Source of the DNA: Oricola indica | GTDB lineage: Bacteria; Pseudomonadota; Alphaproteobacteria; Rhizobiales; Rhizobiaceae | Direction: 5' to 3' | Assembly (NCBI RefSeq): GCF_019966595.1 | Contig: NZ_JAINFJ010000008.1 | Coordinates: 62,001-126,000 of the forward strand | Length of the DNA stretch: 64,000 nucleotides | Shown: piece after piece, positions 4,017 through 48,189 of the stretch | Numbering within the stretch: position 1 is the stretch's first letter | How the letters are laid out: each line of letters begins with the position of its first letter | Program-made: the position numbers and the translations under genes | The notes under the pieces: model-generated | Databases searched by the model: none | What the model saw: the letters and a program-made list of their open reading frames with translations, nothing else | Told to the model about the DNA's origin: nothing

Positions 4017-4598
4017 CTACAATGCCGCGATGTCGCAGCGCTGGAAGAGAAGGCGCAGGCGGAACTGCATAAGGATCGATTGAAACGGACTACTCGTGAG
4101 GGGGTTCGCGGTGCCGTCCCTGGAGAACTTCATGGCATTTCGTTCGAGCTGTCCGGCGATGTCTCGCCCTTGCGCGCGGCGAACACTCTTTTCGTATCCG
4201 GATGGGCTGCCGTTGCGCGGATAGGCGGTCTGGCTCGTGAGGCGGATGCTGTCACGCACGGAGCTTTCGAACAGCCGCAGATAGATCAGCGGGACGGCGA
4301 TTTCCTGTGAAGCCGTGGTCCACGTGCCATAGGCATCGCCGAAGCACCGGCAGGCTTCCTGGCGCTTCAGCGGGGTTTTGCGCGTCATCACGCGCGAGAA
4401 GTCGCGCATGCATATGCGGTATCCGTCATTCGCACTGCGGGACGTGTTGTCGGGCGATTCGCCAAAGGCCGCGCCGTGAAGCGCCATGATCCCGGATCCG
4501 GCTGAGGAGAGGGCATCCGGATTGTGTTGAAGGTAGCTCGCTCCGGCTCCGACGACGCCGGCAAAAACGATTGCGGCGGCGATCAGTTTGACGGACAT
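4017..4598 (-). CDS. Exported protein, likely paralogue of the 3143-3598 product
   Basis: The chosen start (MSVKLIAAAIVFAG) is preceded by AAGGAACG and gives a 193-residue protein with an N-terminal signal or anchor; a longer open frame extends upstream but lacks support. Four cysteines (YRIC, ACRCF, QRCDI) reproduce the framework of the neighbouring exported protein, with 19 instead of 20 residues before CxC. The rest is rich in Ser and Arg with no recognised domain. It reads leftward and is convergent with the small gene at 3741. A periplasmic location is inferred. Confidence 0.65.
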   Translation of the reverse strand: MSVKLIAAAIVFAGVVGAGASYLQHNPDALSSAGSGIMALHGAAFGESPDNTSRSANDGYRICMRDFSRVMTRKTPLKRQEACRCFGDAYGTWTTASQEIAVPLIYLRLFESSVRDSIRLTSQTAYPRNGSPSGYEKSVRRAQGRDIAGQLERNAMKFSRDGTANPLTSSPFQSILMQFRLRLLFQRCDIAAL

Positions 4599-4812
4599 GG
4601 CGCGTTCCTTCTTCTCGACCGTGCGCGCCCTGGATCGCGCCGCCGGTCGCCAGCTCCATGCGCAACCATAGCATGCAGCCATTAACAGAATGCCCAACCC
4701 TGCCTTGCGTTTTGTATCCATGCGCATCGCTGTGCGTTTTTGCACATGTCACGCACCACCACCCGGCTACAGGTCGAGCTCCCAGCGCAATCGCAAGCAA
4801 GGAGAAGGGGTA

Positions 4813-6447
4813 ATGCGCATAATGATCCGATTGTTCATATTTCTGACTATTCTGGCCGCGGGTCCGGCCCTGGCCGCGGATCGAGCCATCATCGTGATGG
4901 ACGCTTCCGGTTCCATGTGGGGCCAGATCGCAGGCAAGACCAAGATCGAGATCGCCCGCGAAACACTCGCTGGCGTTCTGCCCGACATTCCAGGTGACAT
5001 GGAACTCGGCCTGATTGCCTATGGCCACCGCGAAAAGGGCGTATGCTCCGATATCGAGGAAATCGTTCCGCCTGCCGCCGGCACGCGCGAGCGTATCGCA
5101 GAGGCGGCCAACGGGCTCAATCCGAAGGGCAAGACGCCGCTCAGCGACGCGGTCCTGCAAGCCGCGCAGTCGCTCCGATACACCGAGGACAAGGCGACCG
5201 TCATCCTCGTCACCGACGGGATCGAGACCTGCGAGGCCGATCCCTGCGCGGTGGCGAGCGAGCTCGAAAAGGCCGGTGTCGATTTCACCGTTCATGTCGT
5301 CGGCTTCGGCCTGTCGGAGGAGGAGGGCAAGCAGGTCTCCTGCCTCGCCGAAAACACCGGCGGCCGCTACCTGCAGGCGAAGGACGCGGACGAGCTGTCC
5401 GACGCCCTGACACAGACCGTCGCGGCGACGCCGGAACCAGAACCTGAGCCAGAACCGGCAGCTATCGAAGACAATGTTACCGTGAAGGCGGTGCTTGCCG
5501 AAGGCGGTTCGGACTACGATCTCAATGGCCGCTGGGATTACTTCCCGATGGAGGGCGACAATCCGGCCGAGAAATCCGTTAAGGGCGGGTATGACACGGT
5601 CTTCACCACGACGCTCGAACCGGGCCGCTACCTGCTGCGCTACCGGAAGGACATGGTCGTCTCCGAGACGGTGGTCGAGGTGACGGAAGGCGAGGCGATC
5701 GACCGGGACCTCGTTCTCGACGCCGGTGTCGTCACCGTCCGCGTGCTGCCCGACGATGGCGCGGACGTGGATAACGCGGCTCGTTACGACCTCGAGATCG
5801 GCGATGTCCGGGATGGCGGTTACGGCGAGGGCACCAAGGTGGTTCCCGCCGGCGAAATCCGGCTGACGACCCGGCTCGGCGAAAGCAATGCCGAAGAAAG
5901 CTTCACGCTGGCTGCGGGAGAGATCGTGGAGCGCGAGGTGGTGATGGGAATCGGTATCCTCGCGATCAACGCCGAATATTCCGAGGGTGGCCCGATGGTC
6001 GAGTCTGGCAGTCTGCGGGTCGACGTGTTGTCGGGCAAGAAGTCGCTGGACGGCAAGCGCAAGGACATCGATGGCGGCTACGGACCGGGCAATGAGTTCA
6101 AGCTGCCTCCCGGAGACTATCTCGTGCGCGCCCGTCTCGACAAGGCGATTGCCGAAGCGCCTGTCACCGTGACGCGTGGCGAGATGACGGACATCACCGT
6201 CAACCTCGACGCCGGTGTCCTGTATGCCTCCGCGCCGGGCGCCTACCGGATCGATGTCTTCGAGGCGAAAGCCGACCTTCAGGGCAATCGCGACCAGATC
6301 GACGGCACCTATGGCGAGGAATACCAGATCACCCTCAATCCGGGCGACTATCTGGTTGTCGCGACGATGGGCGACGGAAATGGCGAGAAGAAGGAAGCGA
6401 CCGCCAGCGTGACGGCCGCCGAACGCAGCGAAGTCACGATCGACTAG
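4813..6447 (+). CDS. Periplasmic von Willebrand A domain protein with repeated beta modules
   Basis: The start with AAGGAGAAGGGG upstream gives 544 residues: a signal peptide ending at ALA-A (about residue 20), then a VWA domain (about 24-200). Its metal-adhesion site shows DASGS at residues 30-34 and TDGIETC further on. A short EPEPEPEPEP linker follows, and then about four modules of 75-90 residues, each with an LxPG(D/R)YL strand and most ending in a (V/L)xLDAGV-type strand. VWA domains bind ligands through Mg2+. The repeats suggest a stalk or binding platform in the periplasm or on the surface. It is monocistronic and ends at a strong terminator. Partner unknown. Confidence 0.85.
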   Translation: MRIMIRLFIFLTILAAGPALAADRAIIVMDASGSMWGQIAGKTKIEIARETLAGVLPDIPGDMELGLIAYGHREKGVCSDIEEIVPPAAGTRERIAEAANGLNPKGKTPLSDAVLQAAQSLRYTEDKATVILVTDGIETCEADPCAVASELEKAGVDFTVHVVGFGLSEEEGKQVSCLAENTGGRYLQAKDADELSDALTQTVAATPEPEPEPEPAAIEDNVTVKAVLAEGGSDYDLNGRWDYFPMEGDNPAEKSVKGGYDTVFTTTLEPGRYLLRYRKDMVVSETVVEVTEGEAIDRDLVLDAGVVTVRVLPDDGADVDNAARYDLEIGDVRDGGYGEGTKVVPAGEIRLTTRLGESNAEESFTLAAGEIVEREVVMGIGILAINAEYSEGGPMVESGSLRVDVLSGKKSLDGKRKDIDGGYGPGNEFKLPPGDYLVRARLDKAIAEAPVTVTRGEMTDITVNLDAGVLYASAPGAYRIDVFEAKADLQGNRDQIDGTYGEEYQITLNPGDYLVVATMGDGNGEKKEATASVTAAERSEVTID

Positions 6448-31247: not shown

Positions 31248-32376
31248 ATGCGCGCCGAAACCGCGACGCTCGTCGACGACATCAAGCAGGCCATAAGCCT
31301 GCTGAGGAGGCATCTTTGACTGGGACGAGTCCGTCAAACGCCTGGAATATCTGAACGCACGCGCCGAGGATCCCGACCTCTGGAACGACGCCGCCGAAGC
31401 GCAGAAGCTCATGCAGGAGCGCCAGCGCCTCGAGGACATGATCAGCGCCATTCGCGATTTCGACCAGATCCTTGAAGACAGCGTCGAACTCATCGCCATG
31501 GGCGAGGAGGAAGACGACCAGGAAACCATCGGCGAGGCCGAACAGGCAATCCGTGACCTGCAGGGCGCGATCGACAAGCGGTCGGTCGAGGCGCTGCTGT
31601 CCGGCGAGGCCGATTCGAACGATACCTTCATGGAAATCCATTCCGGTGCCGGCGGTACGGAGAGTCAGGACTGGGCGTCGATGCTGTTGCGCATGTACAC
31701 GCGCTGGGCCGAGCGCCGCGGCTTCAAGGTCGAGGTCGTCGAAGTCCAGGCCGGCGAGGAAGCGGGCATCAAGTCGGCGACGATCCAGGTGAAAGGCCAC
31801 AACGCCTATGGCTGGATGAAGACGGAATCGGGCGTCCACCGGCTGGTGCGCATCTCGCCCTACGATTCCAACGCGCGCCGTCACACCTCCTTCGCCTCGG
31901 CTTGGGTCTATCCCGTGATCGACGACTCGATCGACATCGAAGTCGCCGAAAGCGATTGCCGCATCGACACCTATCGCGCCTCAGGCGCAGGCGGCCAGCA
32001 CGTCAACACGACCGACTCGGCCGTGCGTATCACGCACATTCCGAGCGGCATCGTCGTGCAGTGCCAGGCCGAACGCTCGCAGCACAAGAACCGGGCGAGG
32101 GCCTGGGACATGCTGCGCGCGCGCCTGTACGAGGAAGAGCTGAAGCGGCGCGAGGCCGAGGCCAATGCGACCGAGGCCACCAAGACCGAGATCGGCTGGG
32201 GCCACCAGATTCGCTCATACGTTCTCCAGCCCTACCAGCTCGTGAAGGATCTGCGCACCGGCGTGGAATCGACGGCGCCCTCGGACGTGCTCGACGGCGA
32301 CCTCGACGAGTTCATGGAAGCAGCGCTCGCGCACCGGGTTCATGGCGGCGATATCGAAGTCGAGGATGTCGAGTAG
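31248..32376 (+). CDS. prfB: Peptide chain release factor 2 (programmed +1 frameshift)
   Basis: RF2 recognises UGA and UAA and triggers peptide release. The first 23 codons (MRAETATLVDDIKQAISLLRR...) end at an in-frame TGA (31317-31319). After a +1 shift at CTT-TGA the frame continues with DWDESVKRLEYLNARAED to 32376, giving about 375 residues, the normal length. The GGQ motif is at residues 248-250. The stop-codon tripeptide is SPY (residues 203-205) instead of the SPF of E. coli, as in other alphaproteobacteria. A single uninterrupted open frame exists only from 31411, so automatic callers truncate it. Confidence 0.96.
31305..31320 (+). promoter_or_regulatory. RF2 programmed frameshift site
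   Basis: AGGAGG (31305-31310), a 3-nt spacer CAT, then CTT TGA C (31314-31320). The internal Shine-Dalgarno at this spacing and the slippery CUU before UGA reproduce the autoregulatory frameshift known from E. coli prfB: low RF2 lets ribosomes shift +1 and make more RF2. Confidence 0.95.
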
Positions 32377-32378
32377 GA

Positions 32379-32822
32379 TCAGGCGACCGCCTGATCCGAT
32401 TTCTCGATCAGGTCCGGCCATTCGCCGATCATCCCGGCGAAGGCCGCGTCGTCCATATGGTCGATATAGCGCTCGCCGGCCGGACCCAGCGCCTGCATGT
32501 CGTAGCTGACGATCACGTCGGTCGAACCGGGGCCGCGCGCCCGGCAGCGCACCTCGACGAAGGCCGCCCGATTGCCGGGCGTCAGCCGAAAATAGCGCAC
32601 GTGATGGCTTTCCGGCTCCCATTCGAGGCAGGTCCACCATGTCCGCTCATCGCCATTGCCGGTTGCAAACAGCATGTCTTTCCGGGTCTCGCCGCTGTCC
32701 GGTGCGAAATAATCCGGCTTCCAGCCCGGAACCCATTCTTCTTCACCCTTGGGGGTGAACAGGGGGAAGGCGTCGCCGACCGCGCGTTCGACCACGAATT
32801 CATGGCTGAAAGCCTTTCTCAC
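32379..32822 (-). CDS. SRPBCC-like protein coupled to an RHH-like gene
   Basis: From the GTG at 32822, which overlaps the stop of the upstream gene (GTGA) and is preceded by GGAGGAAG, the protein has 147 residues. It has the SRPBCC/polyketide-cyclase-like pattern HEFVVERAVGDAFPLFTPKGEEEWVPGWKPDYF, then EVRCRARGPGSTDVIVSYDMQALGPAGERYI. SRPBCC proteins form a hydrophobic pocket for lipids or small ligands. The ligand is unknown. Tight coupling to the RHH-like protein suggests a shared role, possibly sensing. Confidence 0.8.
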   Translation of the reverse strand: MRKAFSHEFVVERAVGDAFPLFTPKGEEEWVPGWKPDYFAPDSGETRKDMLFATGNGDERTWWTCLEWEPESHHVRYFRLTPGNRAAFVEVRCRARGPGSTDVIVSYDMQALGPAGERYIDHMDDAAFAGMIGEWPDLIEKSDQAVA

Positions 32823-33076
32823 CGGTCTTCCTCCGACAGTTTGTGCGCATCGGCTGCGGTCATCCGGCATTCATAGACATCCCGCAGCTTTTCGATCGCG
32901 GCCAGCGTCTCCTCCGAGAAGGGCTGCTTGCCCTCGAAGGCATGCAACACGATCCCTTCCAGAAGGTCTCCGAGGCTCATTTCCTTGTATTCGGCGAGAC
33001 CCTTCAGGACTTTCAGAAGCGGTGACGCGATGCGGACACCGGTCTGTGTCCGCTCGATTTTCTCAGGTGTTACCAT
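32819..33076 (-). CDS. Ribbon-helix-helix-like small protein
   Basis: The 85-residue product has a short beta-strand-like segment (QTGVRIASP) followed by two helices (LLKVLKGLAEYKE and SLGDLLEGIVLHAFEG), the layout of the RHH/CopG DNA-binding fold, then a C-terminal helix. The assignment is by pattern, not by a recognised signature. The ATG sits in the centre of a 16-bp palindrome, and a near-consensus promoter places the transcription start at or next to the A of the ATG, so the mRNA is probably leaderless and self-regulated. Its stop overlaps the start of the SRPBCC-like gene. Confidence 0.75.
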   Translation of the reverse strand: MVTPEKIERTQTGVRIASPLLKVLKGLAEYKEMSLGDLLEGIVLHAFEGKQPFSEETLAAIEKLRDVYECRMTAADAHKLSEEDR

Positions 33077-33083
33077 GGTAACA
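33068..33083. promoter_or_regulatory. 16-bp perfect palindrome over the RHH-like start codon
   Basis: TGTTACCATGGTAACA reads the same on both strands and contains the ATG (minus strand, 33074-33076). Its outer edge touches the -10 hexamer. A bound repressor would block the start site directly, so it is a strong candidate for the RHH-like protein's own operator. Confidence 0.7.
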
Positions 33084-33110
33084 TTATAGCGAACTGCTGA
33101 AAGTTCTCAA
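33083..33110 (-). promoter_or_regulatory. Sigma70-type promoter giving a leaderless transcript
   Basis: On the minus strand, TTGAGA (33105-33110) and TATAAT (33083-33088) are separated by 16 bp. The -10 hexamer ends 6 nt before the ATG at 33076, which puts the expected transcription start on the A of the start codon. No Shine-Dalgarno fits between them. Confidence 0.75.
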
Positions 33111-33261
33111 GTGCCGAAACGAACCGGTTTTGTGTTCCTCGATGGGTGGCGACCCCGGAAAATTCTTTGGAAATCAGGGATGAATCGCCTGTGACGCAAC
33201 GCACAGCGATGGAACCGACCTGCGGGTAGGTTCGTTTCAAATCCTGACAAGGAGCAAAACA

Positions 33262-33582
33262 ATGGAACCGATCGTTGCTGTAATGCTGATACTTGGTTGC
33301 GACCACTCGATGATGGTCTGCCGCCAGGCCGACCAGCCGGTTCACTATGCCTCCGTCGAAAGCTGCGAAGCAGACAGGGACCTGCGCGTGCGCTTAGTCG
33401 ACAAATATCCGATGGCCGTCGCGGAGTGCATCGAGGTCCCGGAACTGGGATCCGACCGCAAGGTCGTCATCGACTGGCGCGTGGACGCTGCCGGAGGCCT
33501 TCTCGCCGAGGCGCGCCTGCGCGATGTCGGCCCGCTGACCGCGAAAGCGGAACTGCGCACCACCGCCGCCGGCGGCGTGTGA
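33262..33582 (+). CDS. Small conserved-looking protein of unknown function
   Basis: The 106-residue product starts MEPIVAVMLILGCDHSMMVCRQ with an AAGGAGC ribosome site before the ATG. The N-terminus is weakly hydrophobic, and three early cysteines (GCDH, VCRQ, ESCEA) plus ECIEV could form disulfides if exported. No recognised domain. It is a single-gene unit ending at a strong terminator. Confidence 0.75.
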   Translation: MEPIVAVMLILGCDHSMMVCRQADQPVHYASVESCEADRDLRVRLVDKYPMAVAECIEVPELGSDRKVVIDWRVDAAGGLLAEARLRDVGPLTAKAELRTTAAGGV

Positions 33583-47426: not shown

Positions 47427-47439
47427 CGGTCGCGCGGCA

Positions 47440-48189
47440 TCAGCTGATGCCGCGCACCCACGAAAAGGCGCGGCGGATCTCCGCCTCGCCGTCCTGCTCG
47501 AACCACTTGCCGTGCGCGATGACGACCTTGTCCGGATGACAGTCGATCATCCACTCGATAACGGGGCGCAGCCTGTCATGATGCCCGGCGAAGGTGGCGC
47601 GCATGTCGCGCGGCGCGCGCCCGTTCGGCGCCATCACGCCGATCAACTTGTACATGAACCGTGCGAGCCATCCGTGCAGGCGCTTGTCCTCGAAGTTTTC
47701 GATCAGGTCGGTCAGGATCAGCACCCGGGACGCCTTGTGGAAGAAGACGACTTCTTCGAGAACTTTGCTGCCGCGCGCGATGCGCTGATCGATTACCGGG
47801 GCCCAGTCGTCCGGGGGCAAATCGGAGAGATCGTCGGTGAAGGCCACCTCAGAGCGTTTGCGCACGTTTGGAGAGGCCCAGACCTTCGCGTCCGGAAACC
47901 GCTCCGCCCAGGCGCCGATCGATACGTGATGTATCGCGTTGGGCGAGACGAGATGCCTGACCGGCCCCAGGGCCTCGACCGCAGCCAGCAGGCTTTCGTC
48001 GGGGTGCGTTGGCGAATGCAGCCACAATCCGCCATCGGGCAGGCGGACGATCGTCATGCGGGTGGGGAAGGGCCATTTGACCGGAATGCCGTATCCCCAT
48101 TGCAAAACCGGCCCGTTCACGATCCATATGTCGGGGCCGATCGCGATCGGTGTGTTCAGGGGCTCGTAGGGATCGTAGCTGCCGACCAT
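47440..48189 (-). CDS. DUF4336 domain protein
   Basis: The 249-residue product carries the DUF4336 pattern: [93 protein letters not shown], and [17 protein letters not shown]. The region HSPTHPDE and NAIHH resembles the metal site of metallo-beta-lactamase-fold hydrolases. Substrate unknown. It is divergent from rpsD and convergent with the ankyrin gene. Confidence 0.9.

Follow-up and report, generated by a model that had tools for sequence, protein, structure and literature searches.

Two overlapping genes lie on the minus strand near the middle of the window, the whole 64-kb stretch of DNA that was analysed. The first encodes an 85-residue protein of predicted ribbon-helix-helix (RHH) fold and the second a 147-residue SRPBCC-like protein. 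The features of this unit are the following.

32819..33076, minus strand: RHH-like gene, 85 aa, predicted autorepressor (ORF list, AlphaFold2 model, ranking of solved chains, relatives)
32379..32822, minus strand: SRPBCC-like partner gene, 147 aa, GTG start (reading frame, Polyketide_cyc2 profile)
33105..33110, minus strand: -35 element TTGAGA, 16-nt spacer to the -10 (promoter scan)
33083..33088, minus strand: -10 element TATAAT, inside operator box 1
32829..32834, minus strand: ribosome-binding site GGAGGA of the SRPBCC gene, six bases before the GTG (read from the sequence)
33068..33083, both strands: perfect 16-bp palindrome TGTTACCATGGTAACA, lying across boxes 2 and 3
33083..33090, minus strand: predicted operator box 1, GCTATAAT, containing TATAAT (register from relatives)
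33075..33082, minus strand: predicted operator box 2, GTTACCAT, whose last two bases open the start codon
33067..33074, minus strand: predicted operator box 3, GGTAACAC, which begins with the G of the start codon

The promoter, the ATG, the palindrome, the overlap and a ribosome site of the second gene had all been described in an initial annotation, and each of these features was found on the minus strand. The GTG of the SRPBCC-like gene (32822-32820) overlaps the TGA stop of the RHH gene (32821-32819) by 4 nt; the program-made ORF list opens this frame at an upstream ATG rather than at the GTG. The bases GTTACC separate the -10 TATAAT from the ATG at 33076-33074, which is the sole in-frame ATG, GTG or TTG from the upstream stop as far as the conserved QTG, and reading of the sequence before this ATG revealed no Shine-Dalgarno sequence. 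The ATG contributes its A and T as the two central bases of TGTTACCATGGTAACA. A promoter scan over 2 kb returned a single site, with 11 of 12 matches, at a shuffle mean of 0.4.

A divergent ORF of 106 aa (33262-33582, plus strand) adjoins the unit; it has no Pfam or NCBIfam match, resembles the sequence before the related locus L002, and carries around its start an 18-nt direct repeat that is 83% identical (33201-33218 and 33254-33271). The plus-strand gene at 31248-32376, which we take to be prfB, encoding release factor 2, contains a +1 programmed frameshift (AGGAGG and then CTTTGAC near 31314-31320, where the first frame ends). This frameshift is a classic known mechanism.

The RHH protein and its relatives

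The 85-residue protein is matched by no model of Pfam or NCBIfam. Its AlphaFold2 model, built with 80 sequences, reached a pLDDT of 89.2 and contains helices at residues 18-30, 35-47 and 55-67, the first two following a non-helical stretch. DSSP assigned no strand, and its absence from the monomer model is ascribed to the missing second monomer. The predicted monomer agrees with the strand-helix-helix order of the RHH superfamily; the initial annotation had staked its assignment on the outcome of structure prediction, and an RHH monomer was indeed predicted. When 301 Foldseek chains were ranked with VIA-align, CopG came first (Z 4.8, 1.1 A, 42 of 42 residues) and Arc and antitoxin chains occupied most of the top rows, all with Z below 5. 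Foldseek itself gave no significant match for the model (best E 1.7), and a search for solved relatives by sequence gave none (best E 0.72). Among 80 relatives the profile RHH_4 matched 12 (E up to 0.01, best 0.0023), HTH_26 six, MetOD2 four and Tnp_DNA_bind one; no curated RHH model scored above its cut-off, RHH_4 reaching 17.2 bits where 25 are required.

Conservation falls into two groups of residues. Q11, T12, G13 and R15, located in the expected strand, are invariant in 80 aligned sequences, and so are E40, H45, Y68 and H78, whatever the partner gene; in locus L012, outside the 80, Q replaces H78. The tail of the protein (Y68 and H78, 80/80) is constant regardless of the partner and also in loci that have none, and no residue was found that cleanly tracks the partner class.

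Of 121 related genomes (from the genus, family and order), 12 contain the RHH gene, as do 8 of 299 drawn from the phylum, the own genome being included in both counts. A one-genome-per-species scan unveiled at least 505 relatives, the best 80 of which belong, judging from record titles, to Proteobacteria, Actinobacteria, Acidobacteria and Desulfobacterota.

Mobility was assessed by searches that used one or two proteins as queries. None of 50,697 phage records matched the RHH protein, one of 72,556 plasmid records did (this record measures 11.85 Mb), and IMG/VR yielded one partial match of 50 residues. The spread on plasmids and phages that marks type II toxin-antitoxin systems was not seen in the sampled records, and PADLOC returned no match for three proteins.

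An operator of 8-bp boxes and the start codon within it

For the comparison of upstream regions, 98 loci were assembled, 19 from genome searches and 79 from the one-genome-per-species scan, the latter drawn from the best 80 of the at least 505 relatives. Two duplicates were removed (L093, the same locus as L001, and L013, the same as L003). The pairs L005/L087, L052/L054 and L060/L062, which have identical RHH rows, were kept, and the 98 loci are accordingly not independent but comprise 95 distinct rows. Within the 110 bases before the QTGVR-type motif, 82 of the 98 loci contain GKTAMCNTGKTAMC with no more than 2 mismatches, and 39 contain a perfect copy. The motif was read off the very loci that were later counted; this circularity is countered by distant and shuffled controls, with a match in 1 of 92 stretches lying 600 bases upstream (a perfect one) and in 31 of 1960 dinucleotide shuffles. 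The site accompanies all types of locus, being present in 27 of 30 with an SRPBCC partner, 38 of 45 with a helical partner and 17 of 23 with no adjacent partner.

Half-sites are most often 8 bp apart (116 pairs), with a second peak at 16 bp (45 pairs); the 92 control stretches have 1 and 0 such pairs. These peaks indicate an operator made up of 8-bp boxes, two adjacent ones of which form the palindrome. At least two boxes follow each other in 78 of 98 loci, and with its fixed period of 8 bp the array has the tandem-repeat character of a MetJ/omega type operator. The palindrome by itself is unremarkable, as the window holds four perfect palindromes of at least 16 bp against a mean of 2.2 in mononucleotide shuffles. 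The longest of all in the window is a perfect 24-bp palindrome, GCGCGGCATCAGCTGATGCCGCGC, at 47432-47455. With up to 2 mismatches GKTAMCNTGKTAMC matches the window twice (one site, read on both strands) against 2.24 expected; the 16-mer with up to 3 mismatches, a pattern derived from the site itself, matches once against 0.04 expected. It is conservation in relatives, and not the palindrome, that sets the site apart from chance. Of the palindromic operator first proposed, the palindrome stands, but the single palindrome gives way to tandem boxes of which it is a pair.

More than 2 mismatches were counted in 16 of the 98 loci, and gene order accounts for L084 alone. In this locus (L084:4497-5252) the order is reversed; the RHH gene is preceded by no site (4 mismatches), and the partner gene, which is the first of the unit, has three perfect boxes in tandem directly ahead of it. 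The boxes hence mark the head of the unit and not the RHH gene as such. The second reversed locus, L057 (about 4460-5258), has a weak site with 3 mismatches before its partner gene.

In the 5.09-Mb own genome a perfect GTTACCNNGGTAAC occurs once, which together with the 82 of 98 loci upholds the earlier view of an operator at the head of the unit. Allowing 2 mismatches gave 60 genomic sites versus 171 for the reversed control, so that no wider GTTACCNNGGTAAC regulon is apparent, and regulation is read from these counts as local self-control. As a candidate for a wider regulon, a lone site with 1 mismatch elsewhere in the genome was considered and rejected, for it is not kept in the congeners G003 and G001; the gene downstream of it is presumably a luciferase-like monooxygenase.

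The register of the boxes gives a -10 without a specific -35: among 80 loci, 11 were counted at phase 2 and 8-11 at phases 1 and 3-6. A common -35 in register with the boxes was rejected because the -35 is not register-specific, and a count requiring TA at the start of the hexamer was discarded because it favours the -10 register by construction.

Start codons inside the operator were collected by a script that took in-frame start codons flanked by two boxes, TTG being allowed as well. It reported 25 loci, 20 with an SRPBCC partner, four with a helical partner and one without an adjacent partner, the last five all having further candidate starts downstream. L052 shares the layout though it falls outside the script, which brings the arrangement to 21 of the 30 SRPBCC loci. 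In seven of these 21 (the window, L002, L060, L065, L071, L085 and L090) the operator start is the sole candidate. Another candidate lies downstream, before the QTG, in eight (in six of them GTG only) and upstream in seven, L052 having both; L003 and L082 are doubtful members since an ATG after GGAG follows downstream. The base at the start junction is A in 18 and G in 3 loci and never T, in a set selected for a start codon at this place; eight bases upstream of it stands T in 19 and A in 2. The hexamer that ends six bases before the start reads TANNNT in 19 of 21 loci, a -10-like pattern supplied by the box itself. Such loci range from alphaproteobacteria (window, L002), Hyphomicrobiales among them, to actinobacteria (Planobispora, Microbispora). 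With a -10 that ends 6 nt before the only ATG, the geometry in the window fits a messenger without leader, and the RHH mRNA is likely leaderless. The leaderless geometry already pointed out by the initial annotation recurs in relatives, in the 21 of 30 SRPBCC loci including the two doubtful ones.

Partner genes

Three classes of locus can be distinguished by the adjacent partner: SRPBCC in 30 of the 98, a helical protein with an HxxH motif in 45, and none in 23. The SRPBCC class comprises 28 loci obtained by clustering, L060 added by profile and L057, where the partner precedes the RHH gene; the helical class comprises 44 loci and L084, again with the partner in front. L075, whose helical gene lies about 2.3 kb away on the opposite strand, is counted as partnerless. 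Among the 75 loci whose partner is adjacent, only L057 and L084 do not open with the RHH gene. The 4-nt overlap with the RHH stop is found in 22 of 28 SRPBCC loci and in 35 of 44 helical-partner loci that were counted, and the two-gene unit suggested for the window is in this respect conserved among relatives. In the search for conserved linkage that the initial annotation had recommended, the operator is conserved and an SRPBCC gene adjoins the RHH gene in 30 of 98 loci, the remainder having a helical partner or none.

Among the 12 RHH genomes of the 121 related ones, the partner is SRPBCC in four, helical in six, neither in two and both in none. The SRPBCC subfamily was detected in five of the 121 genomes and adjoins the RHH gene in four; the helical partner was detected in ten (two of them weak) and adjoins it in six. 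The genomes G018, G017 and G091 contain partner copies and have no RHH match.

The SRPBCC protein of the window matches Polyketide_cyc2 with E 0.0092 and 16.7 bits, under the curated cut-off of 27.4. Of the 22 proteins in the partner alignment, 13 match PF10604 at E 0.01 or lower (best 7.5e-9) and three match AHSA1, and these profile matches assign the partner family to SRPBCC/START (PF10604). All 22 aligned sequences share F21, E26, W29, W33, P35 and F51. No solved relative was found by sequence (best E 0.11).

The model of the helical partner has a pLDDT of 93.1, and two histidines (HxxH) are invariant in 29 aligned sequences (L045:5258-5665 is an example); the protein may bind metal. Pfam (E up to 0.01) has no match for 30 of 31 members, and the searches for a fold match and for a solved sequence relative gave nothing convincing (best Z 4.1) and nothing at all (best E 0.63), respectively. 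As there is no convincing fold match, no family is named here.

The tree of RHH proteins, built on 77 columns, is poorly resolved. It requires 17 changes among the three partner states, but its strongly supported branches force only 3 partner changes per group (L075 being labelled helical); swaps of the partner are implied by this weakly resolved tree. Beyond the partner, conserved neighbours resemble lineage synteny only, as in Woeseiaceae.

Proposed mechanism, alternatives and known systems

The reading that is favoured here, and that we consider probable, is a local self-repressing two-gene unit headed by an array of 8-bp boxes (GKTAMCNT). Self-repression through the tandem 8-bp operator is strongly suggested by the conservation of the boxes. 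In the window, the -10 lies in box 1, the six-base gap in box 2 and the ATG where boxes 2 and 3 meet. RHH dimers would sit next to one another on adjacent boxes, in the manner of MetJ and omega on their repeats, and would cover the promoter together with the start point, so that the protein would shut off its own messenger. This messenger would begin at or beside the A of the ATG, and the overlapping SRPBCC gene would be translated from its own GGAGGA. With less certainty, a signal could release the RHH protein, perhaps through E40, H45, Y68 and H78, a putative sensing site proposed from their invariance, and the co-produced SRPBCC protein could be the output of the unit, either a carrier or a small protein that binds a ligand, and would not be needed as a co-repressor. 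On a broader and more tentative proposal, the RHH proteins form a plug-in family in which the same box bases serve as operator, -10, start site and start codon, sensing belongs to the RHH protein, and two partners are interchangeable.

A tuning role of the partner, in which the SRPBCC protein would sense a ligand and, by binding the RHH protein, alter how tightly the latter holds the operator, was the idea of the initial annotation and now appears rather doubtful. The near restriction of the SRPBCC subfamily to RHH loci, where four of its five matches in the 121 genomes lie, and the six residues invariant in its alignment would suit a sensor, but an unrelated protein takes its place beside the same operator in 45 of 98 loci, none is adjacent in 23, of which 17 keep the operator, and no RHH residue was found that cleanly follows the partner class. 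A type II toxin-antitoxin system, with the RHH protein as autoregulating antitoxin and the SRPBCC or helical protein as toxin, is considered unlikely. Its small overlapping genes with the RHH gene in front (reversed in L057 and L084), the patchy distribution and the conserved operator would agree with such a system, ArsR/START pairs are classed as toxin-antitoxin-like in the excerpted text of PMC2701414, and the START protein Rv0910 is reported as toxic in that of PMC2781298. Against it stand the RHH tail, invariant whatever the partner (Y68 and H78 in 80/80; L012 without H78), the lack of mobility in the records sampled (phages 0/50,697, plasmids 1/72,556), the 23 of 98 loci without an adjacent partner, and the finding, in the excerpt of PMC9014085, that the Rv0910 homologue MSMEG_5634 neither blocked growth nor bound its neighbour.

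Two further alternatives concern the DNA site. The boxes might serve a different DNA-binding protein and the RHH gene be a bystander, which is highly improbable: the boxes accompany the RHH gene whatever the phylum or partner type, they stay at the head of the unit under the reversed order of L084, the perfect site occurs once in the own genome, and binding to short tandem repeats is a known property of RHH proteins, as with the omega heptads (PMC4803016, as excerpted). The ATG within the palindrome might also be a coincidence of a CCATGG centre, with a transcript that starts farther upstream. The operator consensus with its AT spacer yields an ATG on its own, many relatives with a helical partner start after the operator, often with a Shine-Dalgarno-like stretch, and eight of the 21 loci have another candidate downstream, in two of them an ATG after GGAG. 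We nevertheless give such a coincidence little credence, as the ATG is the only in-frame start in the window and no Shine-Dalgarno sequence precedes it, and as the junction base is A or G in 21/21 and the base one box upstream T in 19/21, in loci that were preselected and with TTG allowed. The local self-repressing unit remains the preferred reading, and it retains from the initial interpretation the RHH protein, the operator, the two-gene unit and the leaderless geometry and abandons the tuning by the SRPBCC partner.

A widespread regulator family that is absent from Pfam and NCBIfam now has a readable operator code, which makes its DNA binding predictable and testable. Promoter, operator and start codon appear to be packed into one repeat in alphaproteobacteria as well as in actinobacteria. 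Two partner families, one of them without a recognisable solved fold, seem interchangeable beside one regulator, which offers a handle on what these partners do. Searches of open-licence PMC full texts, which paired the RHH fold with SRPBCC or polyketide cyclase proteins and covered leaderless RHH genes and palindromic operators, gave no description of a unit like this one.

RHH antitoxins, such as AtaR, TacA and KacA, share with the window protein the predicted fold and the gene order, and they are among the best-ranked solved chains. The window family differs by an invariant tail whatever the partner and by its absence from phage records, and SRPBCC and helical proteins are presumably not usual toxin folds.

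Pairs with a START/SRPBCC gene provide a second comparison. A regulator followed by such a gene has a precedent in the ArsR/COG3832 pair (PMC2701414, in its excerpted part). In the mycobacterial Rv2034-Rv2035 pair, an ArsR autorepressor acts on a palindrome of its own promoter and is followed by an overlapping Polyketide_cyc2 gene (PMC3338718, as excerpted). The window unit resembles this pair in an autorepressor at its own promoter, here predicted, and an overlapping SRPBCC-type gene; the mycobacterial regulator, so far as the excerpt extends, is ArsR and not RHH, has further targets and uses one inverted repeat with a 4-bp spacer. Rv0909-Rv0910, a small gene with a START/SRPBCC gene, was proposed as a toxin-antitoxin system (PMC2781298, excerpt). 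According to the excerpt of PMC9014085, MSMEG_5634 binds acyl-AcpM, and the toxin role is contradicted both for this protein and for Rv0910 expressed in M. smegmatis. Rv0909-Rv0910 and MSMEG_5635-MSMEG_5634 are similar to the window unit in having a small gene and then a START/SRPBCC gene, and differ in that the excerpts describe no RHH protein and dispute the toxin role.

From MetJ and omega the window unit is distinguished by the lack of a sequence family match, by a -10 and a start codon within the boxes and by an apparently local target only. The MetJ operator consists of 8-bp met boxes, and the box sequence of the present operator presumably differs from the repeats of both MetJ and omega. 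MetJ is an RHH homodimer (PMC1282579, excerpt), and omega binds palindromic and non-palindromic 7-bp heptads with one dimer per heptad (PMC4803016, excerpt). With these two regulators the window unit would share the RHH fold, here predicted, and an operator of short repeats read by dimers.
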